Of a DNA stretch of 64,000 nt, positions 2,377-7,745 are shown piece after piece. Source of the DNA: Chryseobacterium sp. G0162 (GTDB taxonomy: Bacteria; Bacteroidota; Bacteroidia; Flavobacteriales; Weeksellaceae). Within the stretch, counting starts at the first letter, position 1. Every line of letters starts with the position of its first letter. The notes below the pieces were generated by a model. That model searched no databases. It had not been told where the DNA came from and saw only the letters and a program-made list of their open reading frames with translations. Position numbers and translations under genes: made by a program. The stretch spans positions 3,334,001 to 3,398,000 of the forward strand of contig NZ_CP033922.1 in assembly GCF_003815715.1 (NCBI RefSeq), read 5' to 3'.

Positions 2377-4827
2377 TTAAACTGAACGGATAATGTCTGC
2401 AAAAATACCACTGGCAGTTACTTCAGCTCCTGCACCGGCTCCTTTGATAACCAATGGCTGTTCGGAGTATCTTAAGGTTTTAAAAATGACAATATTATCT
2501 TTTCCATAAAGATGAAACAGATCGCTTCCCGGAGCAACATGCTGTAAACCTACTTTGGCTTTTCCTTCTTCAAATTCTGCAATATACTTCAGTATTTTTC
2601 CTTCCTTTTGGGCGTTACCCAATAAAGACTTAAAATGACTTTCATATTCTGTAAGCTTTTCATAGAAATGCTCTACACTACCTTCCATACAGGCTGCCGG
2701 TAGGAAACCTATATTTTCAATTTCTTCAAACTGAAGTGAATATCCGGCCTCTCTGGCAAGGATTAAAATCTTTCTGGCCACATCGGTTCCGGAAAGGTCC
2801 AGTCTTGGGTCCGGTTCTGTATAGCCTTCTTTTTGTGCCTGAGCTACCACTTCAGAAAATGTTCTGCTTCCATCGTAGTTGTTGAATACAAAATTTAATG
2901 TTCCACTAAGTACAGCTTCAATAGAAGTTATTTTATCCCCACTTTTAATGAGATCATTAATGGTTCCTATTACCGGAAGCCCGGCTCCTACATTCGTTTC
3001 AAAGTGAAAAGTGCAGTTATGGTTTCTGGCGGTATTCTTTAATGTCGTATATCTGTTAAAATCCGATGAAGCCGCAATTTTATTACAGGCAACAATATTG
3101 ATACTCCTTTTCAAAAGTTCTTCATATACTTCAGGAATTTCAGAACTTGCGGTGATATCAACAAAAACAGAGTTTCTTAAATTACGGGCTTTGATTTCTT
3201 CGGCAAATTTTTGAGCTGAAGCCTCAATACCTGATTCATTCCAGTTGAGGTATTCTTCTTTGGAAATTCCTTTGTCTGCAAAAATCATCTTTCGGCTGTT
3301 GGACAGACCAGCAATTCTTAAGTTGATGAAGTGGTTTTCTCTCAGATATTTATTCTGATTATAGATCTGCTGGATAAGCTTGGTGCCCACATTTCCTGTT
3401 CCACAGATATAAAGATGAATTTGTTTTATTTCTGATTCGAAAAACTCTTCATGAAGGACATTAACTGCTTTTCTGGCATCTTTTTCAGCAACAACAACAC
3501 TGATGTTTCTTTCTGAGGACCCTTGTGCAATAGTTCTGATATTAATTCCATTATTACCTAGACACCCAAACATTTTAGCACTTACCCCACTTCTACTTTT
3601 CATGTTTTCTCCTACTAAAGCTACAATTGAAAGATCTGTTTCAATATGAACCGGAGCTACTCTTTTTAAATCAATATCATCAGCAAAAGAAGCATTAATC
3701 ATCGTTTCAGCAGTTGATATATCTTTTTCGTGAATGGCGATAGTAATGGAATGTTCCGAAGAACCTTGGGTAATGAGAATCACATTTATTTTTTCCTGGC
3801 TCAGACATTGGAAAAGTTTTGCGGAAATTCCAGGAATGCCTACCATTCCACTACCTTCCAGAGTGAGAAGGGCAATATGGCCCATATTTGAAATTCCTAC
3901 TGCTACCTCATGTTTCTCATTTTCTGAAATTTCCAGATTATGGGATACTAATGTTCCTTGCGCTTCCGGATCAAAGGTGTTTTTAATTTTAAGCGTAATA
4001 TTTTTTACCATCACAGGTTGAATAGATGGTGGATAAATAACTTTTGCTCCAAAATGAGAAAGCTCCATAGCTTCATGATAGGAAATTTCTGCGATGGGTT
4101 TTGCATGGGAAACCAAGCGAGGATCAGCAGTCATCATTCCACTTACGTCCGTCCATATCTGAAGTTCCTCAGCCTGAATGACAGCAGCAATTATAGCAGC
4201 AGTATAATCTGAACCACCACGTCCTAATGTTGTTGTATGACCTTTTTCGTCACTGGCTATAAAACCGGGACCTATCAGGATACGGTTCTGATGCTTGTTG
4301 ATATAATTTTTAATATTGCTTTCAGTGGCGCTGAAATTTACTTTCGCATGAGTAAAATTGCTGTCTGTTCTAATGAGTTCTGAAACATTCATCCATAAAC
4401 AATCCATTTCCTGATGCTGAAGTCTTGCTGCAATGATACTGGATGATAAAAATTCTCCGTATGAGGCAATTTTATCCTTGATTCTTGGGGTAAGCTCTCC
4501 AAGAACGAAAATTCCGTTGTATAGATCTTCCAGATCATTGAAGTGTTTTTTTACAAAACTTAGTAAAGAACTTTGTTCTAGAACAGGAATAAGTTCCTTG
4601 ACAAGGTTCAGGTGTTTTTCCTCCGCATTTTTAAGCAGCTGTAAATAATCTTCATTTTTAACAGCTGCATATTCTGCTGCCATAATAAGATGATCTGTTA
4701 CACCATGAAGTGCAGATAAAATGACTACAACATTGCTTTTTGAAGATTCCTTTTTGATAATATTTTCCACCAGCAGGATATTCTGAGAATTGGCGACTGA
4801 TGTTCCGCCAAATTTTAAGATTTTCAT
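2377..4827 (-). CDS. thrA: Bifunctional aspartate kinase / homoserine dehydrogenase I
   Basis: Catalyses the first and third steps from aspartate to homoserine. The 816 residues match the usual size of ThrA-type fusions. The N-terminal aspartokinase domain opens with KFGGTSVANSQNI; two ACT-like regulatory segments follow around residues 310-460 (GISNMGHIALLTLEG and VGENMKSRSGVSAKMF). The homoserine dehydrogenase half starts with a Rossmann motif (ICGTGNVGTKLI, about residue 465) and carries the catalytic-domain motif ETNVGAGLPVIGTI. The ACT region implies feedback inhibition, as known in the family. It is the first enzyme gene of the operon, and a Thr-rich leader peptide precedes it by 93 bp. 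Confidence 0.97.
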   Translation of the reverse strand: MKILKFGGTSVANSQNILLVENIIKKESSKSNVVVILSALHGVTDHLIMAAEYAAVKNEDYLQLLKNAEEKHLNLVKELIPVLEQSSLLSFVKKHFNDLEDLYNGIFVLGELTPRIKDKIASYGEFLSSSIIAARLQHQEMDCLWMNVSELIRTDSNFTHAKVNFSATESNIKNYINKHQNRILIGPGFIASDEKGHTTTLGRGGSDYTAAIIAAVIQAEELQIWTDVSGMMTADPRLVSHAKPIAEISYHEAMELSHFGAKVIYPPSIQPVMVKNITLKIKNTFDPEAQGTLVSHNLEISENEKHEVAVGISNMGHIALLTLEGSGMVGIPGISAKLFQCLSQEKINVILITQGSSEHSITIAIHEKDISTAETMINASFADDIDLKRVAPVHIETDLSIVALVGENMKSRSGVSAKMFGCLGNNGINIRTIAQGSSERNISVVVAEKDARKAVNVLHEEFFESEIKQIHLYICGTGNVGTKLIQQIYNQNKYLRENHFINLRIAGLSNSRKMIFADKGISKEEYLNWNESGIEASAQKFAEEIKARNLRNSVFVDITASSEIPEVYEELLKRSINIVACNKIAASSDFNRYTTLKNTARNHNCTFHFETNVGAGLPVIGTINDLIKSGDKITSIEAVLSGTLNFVFNNYDGSRTFSEVVAQAQKEGYTEPDPRLDLSGTDVARKILILAREAGYSLQFEEIENIGFLPAACMEGSVEHFYEKLTEYESHFKSLLGNAQKEGKILKYIAEFEEGKAKVGLQHVAPGSDLFHLYGKDNIVIFKTLRYSEQPLVIKGAGAGAEVTASGIFADIIRSV

Positions 4828-4920: not shown

Positions 4921-5022
4921 TTATGGGGTAGTTGTTGTAGTTGTGAATGTAGAAACAGCAGATACTCCTGAAATAGGTGACTTCAGGATAGAAATATCAG
5001 ATATGTTTCTTGAAAAATTCAT
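4921..5022 (-). CDS. thrL: thr operon leader peptide (attenuation-type, predicted)
   Basis: A 33-codon open frame starts 10 bp downstream of an exact TAnnTTTG box and ends 93 bp before thrA. Its C-terminal part reads TFTTTTTTP: seven of the last nine codons are threonine, using ACA, ACT and ACC. Four isoleucine codons lie in the first half. In enterobacteria a Thr/Ile-rich leader peptide controls the thr operon by ribosome stalling; the same logic is inferred here. A hairpin (4914-4919 with 4925-4930) straddles the leader stop codon, and another (4864-4871 with 4878-4885) follows, but neither has a clear U-run, so the exact attenuation mechanism is not shown by the sequence. Confidence 0.75.
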   Translation of the reverse strand: MNFSRNISDISILKSPISGVSAVSTFTTTTTTP

Positions 5023-5032
5023 TGTAACAGGA

Positions 5033-5062
5033 CAAATGTACAAATTATTTTGAAATAGCAAA
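5033..5062 (-). promoter_or_regulatory. Promoter of the thr operon
   Basis: On the minus strand TTTG (5059-5062) and TACATTTG (5033-5040) are separated by 18 bp. This matches the Bacteroidota sigma-70 pattern, a TTG/TTTG -33 element and a TAnnTTTG -7 element. The leader-peptide ATG follows the -7 box by 10 bp, giving an extremely short 5' UTR. Confidence 0.65.
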
Positions 5063-5105
5063 CTTTTAACATAATAAATTTGTAAATCCTTTTATAGAGA
5101 AATAT

Positions 5106-5136
5106 TTTGTGTAATTAATTAAAAATCTTACATTTA
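5106..5136 (+). promoter_or_regulatory. Promoter of the Cys-rich peptide cluster
   Basis: TTTG (5106-5109) and TACATTTA (5129-5136) are 19 bp apart. The -7 box has one mismatch to TAnnTTTG. It lies 25 bp upstream of the first peptide gene and is divergent from the thr promoter, so the two transcription units share about 140 bp. Confidence 0.5.
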
Positions 5137-5161
5137 TCAAACTAACTATAATGAATATCCA

Positions 5162-5356
5162 ATGAAAAATTCAAAAAAAATTAAAAGAGAACATTTAAAA
5201 TCAATTAATGGTGGTGGAATAGGGGATTGTTATGAAAATTGTCCTGTTGGACCTTATGGACCAAATGAACCAAGATCATGTGGAGACTTTTATGGGCTGC
5301 CAGAGTGCTGTAAAAAAAGAGTATTGGTAAGTATGGACTGTTTTGACCGTTATTAA
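5162..5356 (+). CDS. Cys-rich peptide precursor with GG leader (peptide 1)
   Basis: The product has 64 residues. A Lys-rich leader of the KKIKREHLKSINGGG type ends in a double-glycine motif; the remaining ~45 residues hold six cysteines as CYENCP, then SC, then ECC, and finally VSMDC. Conserved with the peptides at 5636, 5886 and 6150 are CP, YG, a C-x4-GL/AL segment and VS-x2-C. Such leaders are typical of Bacteroidota natural-product or bacteriocin-like precursors and are normally cleaved during export. No modifying or exporting enzyme is encoded nearby, so the processing route is unknown. The function is not known; an antibacterial or signalling peptide is a guess. Confidence 0.7.
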   Translation: MKNSKKIKREHLKSINGGGIGDCYENCPVGPYGPNEPRSCGDFYGLPECCKKRVLVSMDCFDRY

Positions 5357-5375
5357 TATCTTTCAATAATATAAG

Positions 5376-5400
5376 AGCATTGTTTTTACAGTGCTTTTTT
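5376..5400 (+). terminator. Intrinsic terminator after peptide 1
   Basis: AGCATTG pairs with CAGTGCT (7 bp, one G-U) around a short T-rich loop and runs into six T. The stem core GCAnTG is the same as in the terminators at 6380 and 6698. It separates the first peptide gene from the rest. Confidence 0.75.
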
Positions 5401-5427
5401 GCTTTATCATCTTAAAATTAAAATAAT

Positions 5428-5598
5428 ATGAAAACAATTAAAAGATTATCAAGAGAGCAGAAGAAGAATATCAGTGGTGGCGCTACACAAATTCAAATCG
5501 AAGCTTGTGGTAGTGAACAACTTGTATGTTTTATGGGTGGAGGCAGATGGGGATGCTGGCTTAAGCCTGGTGGAAAATGCTATCCTCCCATGCTGTAA
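5428..5598 (+). CDS. Small peptide precursor with GG leader and Gly/Trp/Cys-rich core (peptide 2)
   Basis: A 56-residue frame starts at an ATG preceded by an A-rich stretch. The leader KTIKRLSREQKKNISGG is a textbook member of the local leader family, but the core is different: it has four cysteines and a glycine-rich centre MGGGRWGCWLKPGGKC. It does not share the CP...YG...ALP...VSxxC pattern of peptides 1, 3, 4 and 5. It lies 37 bp upstream of peptide 3 and probably shares its transcript. The shared leader with an unlike core suggests one processing machinery acting on several products. The function is unknown. Confidence 0.6.
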   Translation: MKTIKRLSREQKKNISGGATQIQIEACGSEQLVCFMGGGRWGCWLKPGGKCYPPML

Positions 5599-5635
5599 TT
5601 TGAATCAAATTGAAATCATTCAAAATCTTTACAAT

Positions 5636-5833
5636 ATGAAAAAGTTATCCAGACATCATCTTAAAAATATTAAAGGTGCGAATGCTTCTCTTTGCAACGG
5701 ATGTCCAACTCATATTAAGTATGGGCCGGGAGTGGAATACACTGGAACCTGTGATAATTATTTTGCATTACCGGATTACTGCAAAGACCAAAATTGTGTT
5801 AGAGTCAGCAGATCTTGTTTTGGAGATAGTTAA
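5636..5833 (+). CDS. Cys-rich peptide precursor (peptide 3)
   Basis: The product has 65 residues from the ATG at 5636. A longer in-frame start at 5474 exists but overlaps peptide 2 and lacks a leader at its N-terminus, so the start giving MKKLSRHHLKNIKG was chosen. The leader ends KGAN rather than GG. Six cysteines follow the family layout: C-x2-CP, YG, TC-x3-YFALPDYC, NC and VSRSC. Its closest relative here is peptide 4. The function is unknown. Confidence 0.68.
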   Translation: MKKLSRHHLKNIKGANASLCNGCPTHIKYGPGVEYTGTCDNYFALPDYCKDQNCVRVSRSCFGDS

Positions 5834-5885
5834 CAGGAATAATTATCAATGATCAGTAAAACATTAATTAATAACAAATCTAAAC

Positions 5886-6095
5886 ATGAAAAAATTATCA
5901 CGAACAAACCTGAAGGATATTAATGGTAAAGGAACGGGATGTAACTTCTGTCCGACTTCCGGAAACTATGGAGATGGTCCTGAATATACCAATGGCTGTA
6001 TGGCTTTTTGGGCATTATCTCCTACGTGTAGAAATTGCGTTGATGTAAGTGCCGATTGCTATGGACCAGATTATTCTGATTATTATGGTCACTAA
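5886..6095 (+). CDS. Cys-rich peptide precursor (peptide 4)
   Basis: The product has 69 residues. The leader MKKLSRTNLKDINGKG differs from that of peptide 3 at only a few positions. The core has C-x2-CP, a YGDGPEYTNGC segment, FWALSPTC, NC and VSADC, so six cysteines in conserved order, then a Tyr/Asp-rich tail (DYSDYYGH) not found in its siblings. It lies 52 bp after peptide 3. It is one of four homologous tandem copies that probably arose by duplication. The function is unknown. Confidence 0.7.
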   Translation: MKKLSRTNLKDINGKGTGCNFCPTSGNYGDGPEYTNGCMAFWALSPTCRNCVDVSADCYGPDYSDYYGH

Positions 6096-6149
6096 ATGAA
6101 AATTTTGCTAAACAATACTATTCAATAACATCAAAAAATTAAAATAACT

Positions 6150-6353
6150 ATGAAAAATATAAAGAAATTAAACAGAAAAGAATTAGGAGGCATAAATGGT
6201 TCAATTGGATCAAACTGTAGCAGATGTCCACAGCATACAACATATGGAACTGGTCCCAATGATGCTCCATGTAGTGCTTATCAAGCGCTTCCTACTTATT
6301 GCAAAGCATGCGTAATTGTAAGTATGGAGTGTATGGATGGAGGAGTATCTTAA
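6150..6353 (+). CDS. Cys-rich peptide precursor (peptide 5)
   Basis: The product has 67 residues. The leader MKNIKKLNRKELGGINGS is followed by C-x2-CP, YGTGPNDAPC, AYQALPTYC, AC and VSMEC: six cysteines in the same order as peptides 3 and 4. It is the last plus-strand gene of the cluster and is followed by a strong bidirectional terminator. The even number and regular spacing of cysteines suggest disulfides or thioethers, an inference only. Confidence 0.7.
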   Translation: MKNIKKLNRKELGGINGSIGSNCSRCPQHTTYGTGPNDAPCSAYQALPTYCKACVIVSMECMDGGVS

Positions 6354-6379
6354 TATAAAGATGACTCATCGAAAATAAA

Positions 6380-6406
6380 AAAGCACTGTAAAAATTACAG
6401 TGCTTT
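6380..6406. terminator. Bidirectional terminator between peptides 5 and 6
   Basis: A perfect 12-bp stem (AAAGCACTGTAA with TTACAGTGCTTT) has a 3-nt loop. The A-rich left flank and T-rich right flank let it serve both convergent genes. Confidence 0.8.
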
Positions 6407-6411
6407 ATGTT

Positions 6412-6570
6412 TTAACATTCAGTAGGGAAATAAGGTCCTTTTGGAAGGCAAATAGGTTGTCCATAGCATCCTATATCACAAATTTCACGTATACTACAAT
6501 AGCTACAGGTATTTGACCCTCCGTTTACTTTTTTAAGATTTTCTCTGTTTAATTTCTTTAAATTTTTCAT
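6412..6570 (-). CDS. Small Cys-rich peptide precursor with GG leader (peptide 6)
   Basis: A minus-strand frame of 52 residues converges on peptide 5. The leader KNLKKLNRENLKKVNGG is clearly of the same class and ends in GG. The core has six cysteines in another order: C-x2-C, then IC, GC, IC and a C-terminal C, with Pro-rich spacing (LPKGPYFPTEC). It lacks the ALP...VSxxC block of peptides 1, 3, 4 and 5. It shares the terminator at 6380 and lies 156 bp from nadA. The function is unknown. Confidence 0.62.
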   Translation of the reverse strand: MKNLKKLNRENLKKVNGGSNTCSYCSIREICDIGCYGQPICLPKGPYFPTEC

Positions 6571-6697: not shown

Positions 6698-6721
6698 AAA
6701 GCACTGTAAAAACAGTGCTTT
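6698..6721 (-). terminator. Terminator downstream of nadA
   Basis: AAAGCACTG pairs with CAGTGCTTT (9 bp, 6-nt loop); on the minus strand it runs into seven T. It sits 4 bp past the nadA stop. It is the third copy of the GCACTG stem within 1.4 kb. Confidence 0.8.
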
Positions 6722-6725
6722 AAAT

Positions 6726-7745
6726 TTACTTTATACTTTTCGAAAGATCAAGCATCGCCTCAATGGGCTTCAATGCTTTTAATCTTAATTCTTCGTCGAT
6801 AAGAATCTCAGGAAGCTCATATTTCATACATAAATACAGCTTTTCCATTGTATTACGTTTCATGTAGAAACATTCTGAGCAGTTACAACTTTCGTCGAAA
6901 ACTAATGCAGGAATTAATTCCTTGTGTGGTGCACGTTTTCTCATCTCATGGAGAATCCCTTCTTCTGTTGCGATGATGAATTTCTGGCAATCATCCTTTT
7001 CTACAAAGTTCAGCAGAGCAGAAGTGGAACCAATGAAGTGTGCTAATTTTAAAACAGCTTCTTCACTTTCCGGGTGTGCAATCATTTTTGCATCCGGATT
7101 GTCTGCAAGTTGTTTTGCAATTCTTTCCATTGAAAATGCCTCGTGTACTATGCAGCTTCCGTCCCAAAGGATCATATCGCGACCTGTCTTTTTAGATAAA
7201 TATCTTCCCAGGTTTTTGTCCGGTGCAAAAATGATGGGTCTGTCTTTTGGAAGCGCTTCAATAACGGTTTCAGCATTTGAGCTTGTTACGATAATATCAC
7301 TTTCAGCCTTTGTTTCTGCATTACAGTTAATGTAAGTAGCAATTAAAGCATCAGGATGTTGCTCACGCATTTTTCTTAATCCTTCTCCAGAGCATCCGTC
7401 TGCCAGAGAGCATCCAGCCATGGTATCAGGAAGAACTACTTTTTTAGTTGGATTAAGAATTTTTGCTGCTTCAGCCATGAAATGTACTCCACAGAATACA
7501 ATCATGTCAGCATTAGTTTCTTTTGCCTGTCTTGCCAATTGCAGAGAATCTCCAAGGAAATCAGCAATATCCTGAATTTCTCCCGGTTGGTAATAATGGG
7601 CAAGGATTACAGCGTTTTTCTCTTCCTTAAGTTTTAGAATGGCTTTTACCAGTTCTTCTCCCTGAGGAATCGCTATGCCTTTTATATCCAGGAATCCTTT
7701 TACGGGAATCGCAGATTTAGCTTTTTCTAATGTTTCGGTACTCAT
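6726..7745 (-). CDS. nadA: Quinolinate synthase
   Basis: Condenses iminoaspartate with dihydroxyacetone phosphate to quinolinate in NAD synthesis, using a 4Fe-4S cluster. The 339 residues show AHYYQPGEIQDIADFLGDSL (about 49-68), the first cluster cysteine in FCGVHFMAEA (C85), DTMAGCSLADGC, and a C-terminal CNCSECFYMKRNTM cluster region. It follows gmk in the same direction with a gap of 106 bp filled with AGAAGTTAGA-like words, so cotranscription is uncertain. nadB and nadC are not in the window. Confidence 0.96.
   Translation of the reverse strand: MSTETLEKAKSAIPVKGFLDIKGIAIPQGEELVKAILKLKEEKNAVILAHYYQPGEIQDIADFLGDSLQLARQAKETNADMIVFCGVHFMAEAAKILNPTKKVVLPDTMAGCSLADGCSGEGLRKMREQHPDALIATYINCNAETKAESDIIVTSSNAETVIEALPKDRPIIFAPDKNLGRYLSKKTGRDMILWDGSCIVHEAFSMERIAKQLADNPDAKMIAHPESEEAVLKLAHFIGSTSALLNFVEKDDCQKFIIATEEGILHEMRKRAPHKELIPALVFDESCNCSECFYMKRNTMEKLYLCMKYELPEILIDEELRLKALKPIEAMLDLSKSIK

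Follow-up and report, generated by a model that had tools for sequence, protein, structure and literature searches.

Six cysteine-rich leader peptides between thrA and nadA of Chryseobacterium sp. G0162: probable precursors of bacteriocin-like peptides with disulfide bonds, matured by a distant export and oxidation operon

Six small genes encoding cysteine-rich peptides with a common N-terminal leader stand between thrA and nadA in Chryseobacterium sp. G0162, and none of the open reading frames (ORFs) of that interval looked like a maturation gene, as the initial annotation of this DNA had already pointed out. What are these peptides, and which proteins could mature them? We examined the locus within a stretch of 64,000 nucleotides (contig NZ_CP033922.1, positions 3,334,001 to 3,398,000), here called the window, and then in the genome, a single contig of 5.28 Mb, and in related genomes. 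We propose that the six probably give rise to secreted, bacteriocin-like peptides with several disulfide bonds, and that they belong to a set of about 76 precursors that are most likely exported and oxidised in trans by one distant operon. The proposal is built on the selection acting on the genes, their synteny, a leader type in common with the exporter operon, the even number of cysteines in the cores, the mostly paired loss of cysteines, and the invariant redox cysteines of the oxidase. The six genes, in window coordinates and with the ratio of nonsynonymous to synonymous substitution rates (dN/dS), are the following.

5162..5356, plus strand: p1, predicted precursor with a GG-type leader; core family member with six cysteines in framework II, C-x3-C-x12-C-x8-C-C-x9-C; dN/dS 0.15
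5428..5598, plus strand: p2, predicted precursor with a GG-type leader; core unrelated to the others, four cysteines; dN/dS 0.08
5636..5833, plus strand: p3, predicted precursor with a GG-type leader; core family member, six cysteines; dN/dS 0.14
5886..6095, plus strand: p4, predicted precursor with a GG-type leader; core family member, six cysteines; dN/dS 0.10; model with a mean predicted local distance difference test score (pLDDT) of 75.7
6150..6353, plus strand: p5, predicted precursor with a GG-type leader; core family member, six cysteines; dN/dS 0.12
6412..6570, minus strand (convergent): p6, predicted precursor with a GG-type leader, the highest leader score of the six; unrelated core, six cysteines; dN/dS 0.18

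These six ORFs are real genes. Pooled pairwise dN/dS over eight relatives was 0.08–0.18 for p1 to p6 (p6 was compared in three of the eight and p3 in four), against yardsticks of 0.07 for thrA and 0.01 for nadA; the peptide ratios are rough because dS was saturated in some pairs. Chance or noncoding ORFs were ruled out by these values, which revealed purifying selection on all six. Conservation supported the same conclusion: of 173 genomes of the genus, G0162 included, 127 carry the core family at E ≤ 1e-10, 32 more have weaker matches, mostly at the level reached by the leader alone, and 14 have none at E ≤ 0.01. On both points that the initial annotation had set as tests, conservation in relatives and codon substitution rates, the outcome thus favoured genuine genes.

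The initial annotation had described six genes with a common leader and had read them as a cluster of bacteriocin-like GG-leader precursors. We found all six, and every leader was matched by NCBIfam NF047798 (E 3e-8 to 7e-4), under which NCBI already names this leader 'leader_Chryseo, bacteriocin-like protein'. The leaders are basic and short (14–17 residues by reading), and close with GG, NG or KG; the residues read at the cut site are GG in p1, p2 and p6, KG-A in p3, NG-K in p4 and NG-S in p5. NF047798 spans 18 leader positions, with a cut-off of 23.5 bits. Scored as proteins, two of the six passed (p1 and p6) and p2, p3 and p5 reached 22.0–22.6 bits; in the genome scan five passed (p1, p2, p3, p5 and p6), p2 only with its neighbours in frame. 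The sixth, p4, stayed below the cut-off both as a protein (19.7 bits) and in the genome scan (22.5 bits), and its core is 43–52% identical to the cores of p1, p3 and p5, the three values being 43, 46 and 52%.

The six-cysteine core ascribed to four of the genes (5162, 5636, 5886 and 6150) was confirmed, whereas the motif described for it did not hold throughout: p1 has C-x3-CP and LPECC, with the fifth cysteine shifted, and p4 has ALSPTC where ALP..C had been described. The G0162 genome holds four copies of this family, after which scores drop from 107 to 28 bits. Across the family 82 of 83 members have six cysteines and one has seven, in two main spacing frameworks that place the fifth cysteine differently. 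This core matched no dedicated family in Pfam or NCBIfam, and some of its relatives are already called 'bacteriocin-like protein' in their source annotation. Known families gave little among the six peptides: the best score against NF047792 (CCPGW putative bacteriocin, cut-off 80 bits) was 22.5 bits, for p6; Pfam PF10439 Bacteriocin_IIc (cut-off 27.1 bits) matched p6 alone, at 17.5 bits; and the grasp-with-spasm target family TIGR04139 had no match at E ≤ 10. The p4 model matched nothing in the PDB or in a viral fold library, a missing match being no proof of a new fold, and its sequence returned six weak PDB matches (E 0.085–4.8), none convincing.

The number of cysteines proved to follow a rule across the genome. 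Of 173 candidates, 150 were scored for the leader, giving 80 matches at E ≤ 10 and 45 above the curated cut-off; in-frame reading removed four (two inside long frames, two very short) and left 76 precursors. An even, non-zero number of core cysteines was found in 73 of these: two cysteines in 1, four in 27, six in 41 and eight in 4. The three odd cases have one, three and five cysteines; the first is a 30-residue frame, and the second has a grasp-type leader by reading. All six window peptides are even. Pattern mining over all loci then examined gave 356 even, non-zero counts among 362 distinct peptides (62 of 63 in G0162, 248 of 252 in the rest of the genus and 46 of 47 outside it), and the only zero-cysteine peptide looks like a chance frame. 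When cores were clustered, 42 of 45 loose and 81 of 84 tight clusters were even, with binomial tails under random parity of 4e-10 and 5e-21, the clusters not being fully independent. The A1 core profile favours six-cysteine cores for the window family only, and the G0162 census is free of that bias. Long ORFs with 2–9 cysteines were even in 21 cases and odd in 14. Pattern mining also picked out a large array at about 4557–4561 kb of the G0162 genome (L081:13434-17192), with seven GG peptides on one strand, each with four or six cysteines.

Where cysteine number changes within a family, it changes mostly in twos. Eight tight families had mixed counts, and five of these differed by two. The fourth and sixth cysteines were lost jointly in one family (L025, three of five members) and again in L186 compared with L177, the first and sixth in L024 compared with four relatives, and the third and fourth in one family (3 of 12 members) and in another (1 of 28). 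Of the other mixed families, one differed by four (eight versus four), one by a single cysteine (five versus four), and one was a cluster of 109 members with four and six cysteines plus one with seven. Even counts, together with cysteines mostly lost in twos, are what would be expected if every cysteine were disulfide-bonded, and are not what thioethers would predict.

Two C39 exporter matches were found in the G0162 genome. One lies in an operon at about 1775.9–1781.5 kb that encodes a VKOR-DsbA-like fusion, a GG peptide, the exporter (at about 1777.7 kb), a second GG peptide and HlyD, and both of its leader_Chryseo peptides pass the NF047798 cut-off. The finding of the same leader type in an exporter operon elsewhere in the genome bears out processing in trans, which the initial annotation had suggested, as a likely route for the window peptides. 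The C39 exporter would cut the leader and export the peptide with the HlyD adaptor, and the fusion, in the membrane, would oxidise the cysteines in pairs. The fusion has 502 residues. In a structural model (pLDDT 61.6) its two parts gave the fold matches expected of them, VKOR for one and ScsC/BdbD/DsbA for the other, in agreement with Pfam, and none of its six cysteines (two VKOR pairs and a DsbA-like CxxC) varies among 23 sequences.

We compared 20 exporter regions from relatives, hand-picked mostly where VKOR and C39 matches lay close together, so that adjacency is descriptive; peptides were no criterion. The exporter was 88–99% identical in all 20, the fusion stood in the same region at 60–97% identity in 18, and GG peptides lay inside the span in 17. 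The three relatives without them are G030 and G089, which are peptide-less genomes, and G142, whose oxidase is located elsewhere, next to three GG peptides. The same order was found outside the genus (G290), with oxidase (48%), GG peptides, exporter (86%) and HlyD. Absence of VKOR judged from Pfam alone was misleading, because G107 has no Pfam VKOR match and yet carries a divergent oxidase (46–47%) beside an exporter, HlyD and a six-cysteine GG peptide; the VKOR table was corrected for G107, and the other genomes without a Pfam VKOR match were checked in the same way. The second C39 match in G0162 stands in a row with LanB and LanC at about 4026.3–4032.9 kb (L068:7349-13866), and no leader_Chryseo peptide was found in the surrounding 19 kb.

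Such neighbours raise another explanation, in which the window peptides would be enzymatically modified peptides, either LanB/LanC lanthipeptides or graspetides and radical-SAM products of a grasp-with-spasm pair, with their cysteines in thioethers or free. Both enzyme sets are present (LanB, LanC, TIGR04192 and TIGR04193), each near a C39 exporter; LanB and LanC stand elsewhere in the genome, with no such gene between thrA and nadA. Of the maturation genes for which the initial annotation had proposed a genome search, C39, LanB/LanC and ATP-grasp do exist, as does a SPASM gene, whereas the evidence points to disulfides rather than to Lan, grasp or SPASM enzymes. A thioether joins one cysteine to another residue and sets no parity, while the observed parity is nearly perfect. 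Moreover, both grasp-with-spasm genes occur in only 4 of the 20 oxidase-exporter regions fetched, two of the four being distant versions (31–42%), and a fifth region has the SPASM gene alone. The grasp-type precursors of G0162 (L067:4534 and 1452315) have a different leader by reading and two or three cysteines, the former scoring 26.2 bits against TIGR04139 (cut-off 40), and none of the window peptides scores above the cut-off of any graspetide or lanthipeptide precursor family. Parity and the patchy maturases disfavour modification by either kind of enzyme as the central step, and we regard it as unlikely. In G0162 the ATP-grasp and SPASM maturases stand right before the oxidase-exporter operon (L067:5606-7784, about 1773.6–1775.8 kb), with the two-cysteine precursor at L067:4534, an arrangement which suggests two chemistries sharing one exporter.

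The oxidase gives a lead as to how precursors might be recognised. Within the fusion, conservation is highest over residues 1–115, with 56% invariant positions compared with 44% in the VKOR part and 25% in the thioredoxin part, measured in 55 of 120 homologues among the matches listed. A profile comparison of this N-terminus with C39 gave E 0.023, a value that none of 20 column shuffles reached (best 0.036), at an HHalign probability of only 2%. Foldseek with the whole oxidase model returned the C39 exporter PCAT1 (8vp5_B) at E 9.2e-4 and a template modelling score of 0.11–0.15, the N-terminus being modelled at low confidence, and the VIA rows shown for the model leave the N-terminal part uncovered. 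By reading of the alignment the catalytic cysteine, histidine and aspartate of C39 are missing. As a lead from sequence comparison only, the domain may be a pseudo-C39 domain, C39-peptidase-like without catalytic residues, that docks the leader.

The presence of the peptides was compared with that of the oxidase across the 173 genomes. VKOR was not found in 11 genomes, of which 10 were also peptide-less, and was present in 162, of which 3 were peptide-less; presence here means any Pfam VKOR rather than the operon's own fusion, except in 17 genomes checked individually. The peptide-less state of the 13 genomes rests on the A1 core search, and the leader search was also zero in eight of them (G004, G018, G036, G060, G076, G089, G108 and G111); the other five, which the leader search may not have sampled, do not figure among its matches. 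On a kinship tree of 41 genomes, including all those scored as absent, five independent pairs could be formed. Paired by peptides, 3–4 agreed and none was opposite; paired by oxidase, 3–4 agreed and at most one was opposite.

Several observations weigh against the proposal that the six are disulfide-bonded peptides served by this operon. The kinship-corrected co-occurrence was not significant (p 0.125–0.625), because only five independent pairs exist. G069 keeps core peptides with no C39 or VKOR match found, G089 and G137 have exporter and oxidase with no peptide found, and in G030 the exporter is present with an oxidase of only 25% identity. The p1-type peptide of G069 (L121:4711-4902) lies near nadA with a DDE transposase (about 4977–5930) between the two, and the locus may therefore be decaying. 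At the leader, p3, p4 and p5 lack a GG pair at the cut site; at the oxidase, the N-terminus scores 18 bits against Peptidase_C39, under the Pfam cut-off of 22, with 13.5 bits in a second fusion homologue and no match in a third. As for parity, a raw control of other short ORFs of the same loci with 4–8 cysteines was itself 101 even to 23 odd. This control is unclean: 18 of its frames contain peptides, a few are leader peptides missed by the pattern, and many are shadow frames repeated in relatives. The rest counted 65, 16, 14, 3 and 4 for four to eight cysteines, with 99 at three, and shows no alternation of even and odd, because counts drop steeply with cysteine number, mostly from four to five. 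A conserved GG-leader family with five cysteines occurs in four genomes (L076:2150-2314, L157:15592-15756, L166:4401-4568 and L199:3160-3324), the only clear family observed to break the even rule, and its sole four-cysteine relative differs by a single cysteine; a dimer or a free cysteine is possible there.

Even counts would also fit metal binding, and this belongs with the points against. The peptides would then be small cytoplasmic metal-binding proteins such as zinc ribbons, their cysteines even through a need for four ligands and their likeness to the leader incidental. Metal sites often have four and six cysteines, and paired cysteines are frequent. The same leader, however, also heads peptides encoded within C39 exporter operons, cysteine spacings vary widely between core families, and counts of two, four, six and eight all occur, so that metal binding appears very improbable.

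Compared with systems already described, NF047798 has the same N-terminal leader as all six window peptides and covers the leader only, saying nothing on the core, the cysteine rule, the exporter or the oxidase. In the prochlorosin system numerous scattered precursors carry a single type of leader and are served in trans; the products are lanthipeptides made by one synthetase. The present set would resemble them in its dispersed same-leader precursors served in trans, with oxidation to disulfides as the probable common step. Within open-licence literature, by titles and the beginnings of abstracts, we came across no paper that treats either this set of peptides or, for this genus, a VKOR-exporter operon.

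The closest tested precedent, by analogy, appears to be the bacteroidetocins (proposed class IIf). In the sections of PMC6671954 drawn on here, these kill Bacteroidales and have a short GG-type leader of 15–16 residues cut after GG, a cysteine-containing core, a C39 exporter, a thiol oxidoreductase and no immunity gene; deletion of the oxidoreductase weakens toxin activity, and a gel shift supports disulfides. The steps proposed for the window peptides would be alike: GG-type leader, cysteine core, C39 exporter, thiol oxidoreductase and no immunity gene. Going by the same sections, the bacteroidetocins have one peptide gene in a four-gene locus with the exporter, whereas here six precursors stand alone, over 1.5 Mb separates them from the candidate exporter operon, most cores have 4–8 cysteines, the oxidase is a VKOR-DsbA-like fusion and HlyD is present. 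Because the four-gene locus is not found here, we do not class the window peptides as bacteroidetocins, a separation made on locus layout and not on core sequence. The grasp-with-spasm or graspetide systems, including the chryseoviridins, occur in Chryseobacterium with a C39 exporter and multiple tandem precursors, as far as the portion of PMC8939145 drawn on here describes them. G0162 is like them in the two maturases just before its oxidase, and unlike them in that few relatives have both maturases and that none of the six window peptides was recognised as a member of the target family.

Is the locus an inserted, amplified island, as had been suggested? Its flanks are housekeeping genes, as annotated; the products were confirmed as bifunctional aspartate kinase/homoserine dehydrogenase, NadA, guanylate kinase and homoserine kinase. 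Flanking genes and two terminator-like hairpins of the interval are as follows.

2377..4827, minus strand: thrA, bifunctional aspartate kinase/homoserine dehydrogenase; flank, outside the system
5373..5398, plus strand: terminator-like hairpin after p1; pattern match only
6380..6406, no strand assigned: terminator-like hairpin between p5 and p6, usable by both strands; pattern match only
6726..7745, minus strand: nadA, quinolinate synthase; flank, outside the system

In each of the 20 core-bearing relatives fetched, no more than about 1.5 kb separated core peptides from nadA, and in 17 of them thrA followed on the opposite side; these loci were chosen from the best core matches, so that the count applies to core-bearing genomes. 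A recent insertion or mobile island was ruled out by this synteny and by the absence of any tRNA in the window. A comparison of copy number, which the initial annotation had also put forward, revealed that it varies between relatives, and in two peptide-less ones the thrA-nadA gap is 301 and 329 bp, compared with 1898 bp here; in the remaining peptide-less genomes thrA did not turn up next to nadA. The peptides beside nadA across relatives and the short gaps in peptide-less ones therefore indicate a resident array that expands, shrinks and can be lost. In one relative (G016, L088:3503-6368) an extra stretch of about 2.7 kb lies between two p1-like copies in the same interval. Six terminator-like hairpins were found in the region by pattern match, compared with 0.8 expected. 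Three hairpins (5373-5398, 6380-6406 and 6698-6721) are alike, with GCACTGT...ACAGTGC and T-runs; a similar one occurs in L121 (G069). On this pattern match alone they could represent a shared terminator type.

The last question is what the products do. They would most likely act as antibacterial peptides. Secreted disulfide-bonded peptides made by the same export and oxidation steps could instead have a non-killing role, as kin signals, as matrix or surface peptides, or in action on a host or grazers. Strong purifying selection, long persistence at a single site across most of the genus, a window locus with no obvious immunity gene and very many precursors per genome would suit such a role. 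Killing bacteroidetocin loci, however, also have no immunity genes in the sections of PMC6671954 drawn on here. No gene for an exporter, thiol oxidoreductase or five-transmembrane protein was seen between thrA and nadA, exporter and oxidase being elsewhere in the genome, and no receptor or regulator was seen at the window locus. Upstream of the starts of the 76 G0162 precursors the sequence is A-rich; a gapped-dyad search over them reached 16, with shuffle null maxima of 12–16, giving no shared motif, and the only enriched pattern was the Bacteroidota promoter pattern. A non-killing role is a possibility that we take seriously and yet consider somewhat doubtful.

Returning to disulfide-bonded bacteriocin-like peptides, the value of the finding lies in the genome-wide parity of cysteines and the link to one exporter-oxidase operon. 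Orphan peptides of this kind are now labelled 'bacteriocin-like' or 'hypothetical', and the parity rule offers a simple sequence test of the role of their cysteines, while paired cysteine loss yields testable predictions of connectivity. More tentatively, Chryseobacterium and its near relatives may keep an extensive, rapidly diversifying arsenal of secreted peptides rich in disulfides (about 76 precursors here, and 84 core families over the loci read), all dependent on one conserved export-and-oxidation machine. The pseudo-C39 domain of the oxidase would grip the common leader, so that oxidation is coupled to leader recognition, and selection would keep the cysteine number even as cores diverge, akin to animal venom peptides and defensins. 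If this is true, deleting the exporter or the oxidase alone should silence dozens of peptides, which would make their function directly testable, and VKOR-type oxidation would be a Bacteroidota route to disulfide-bonded bacteriocins.

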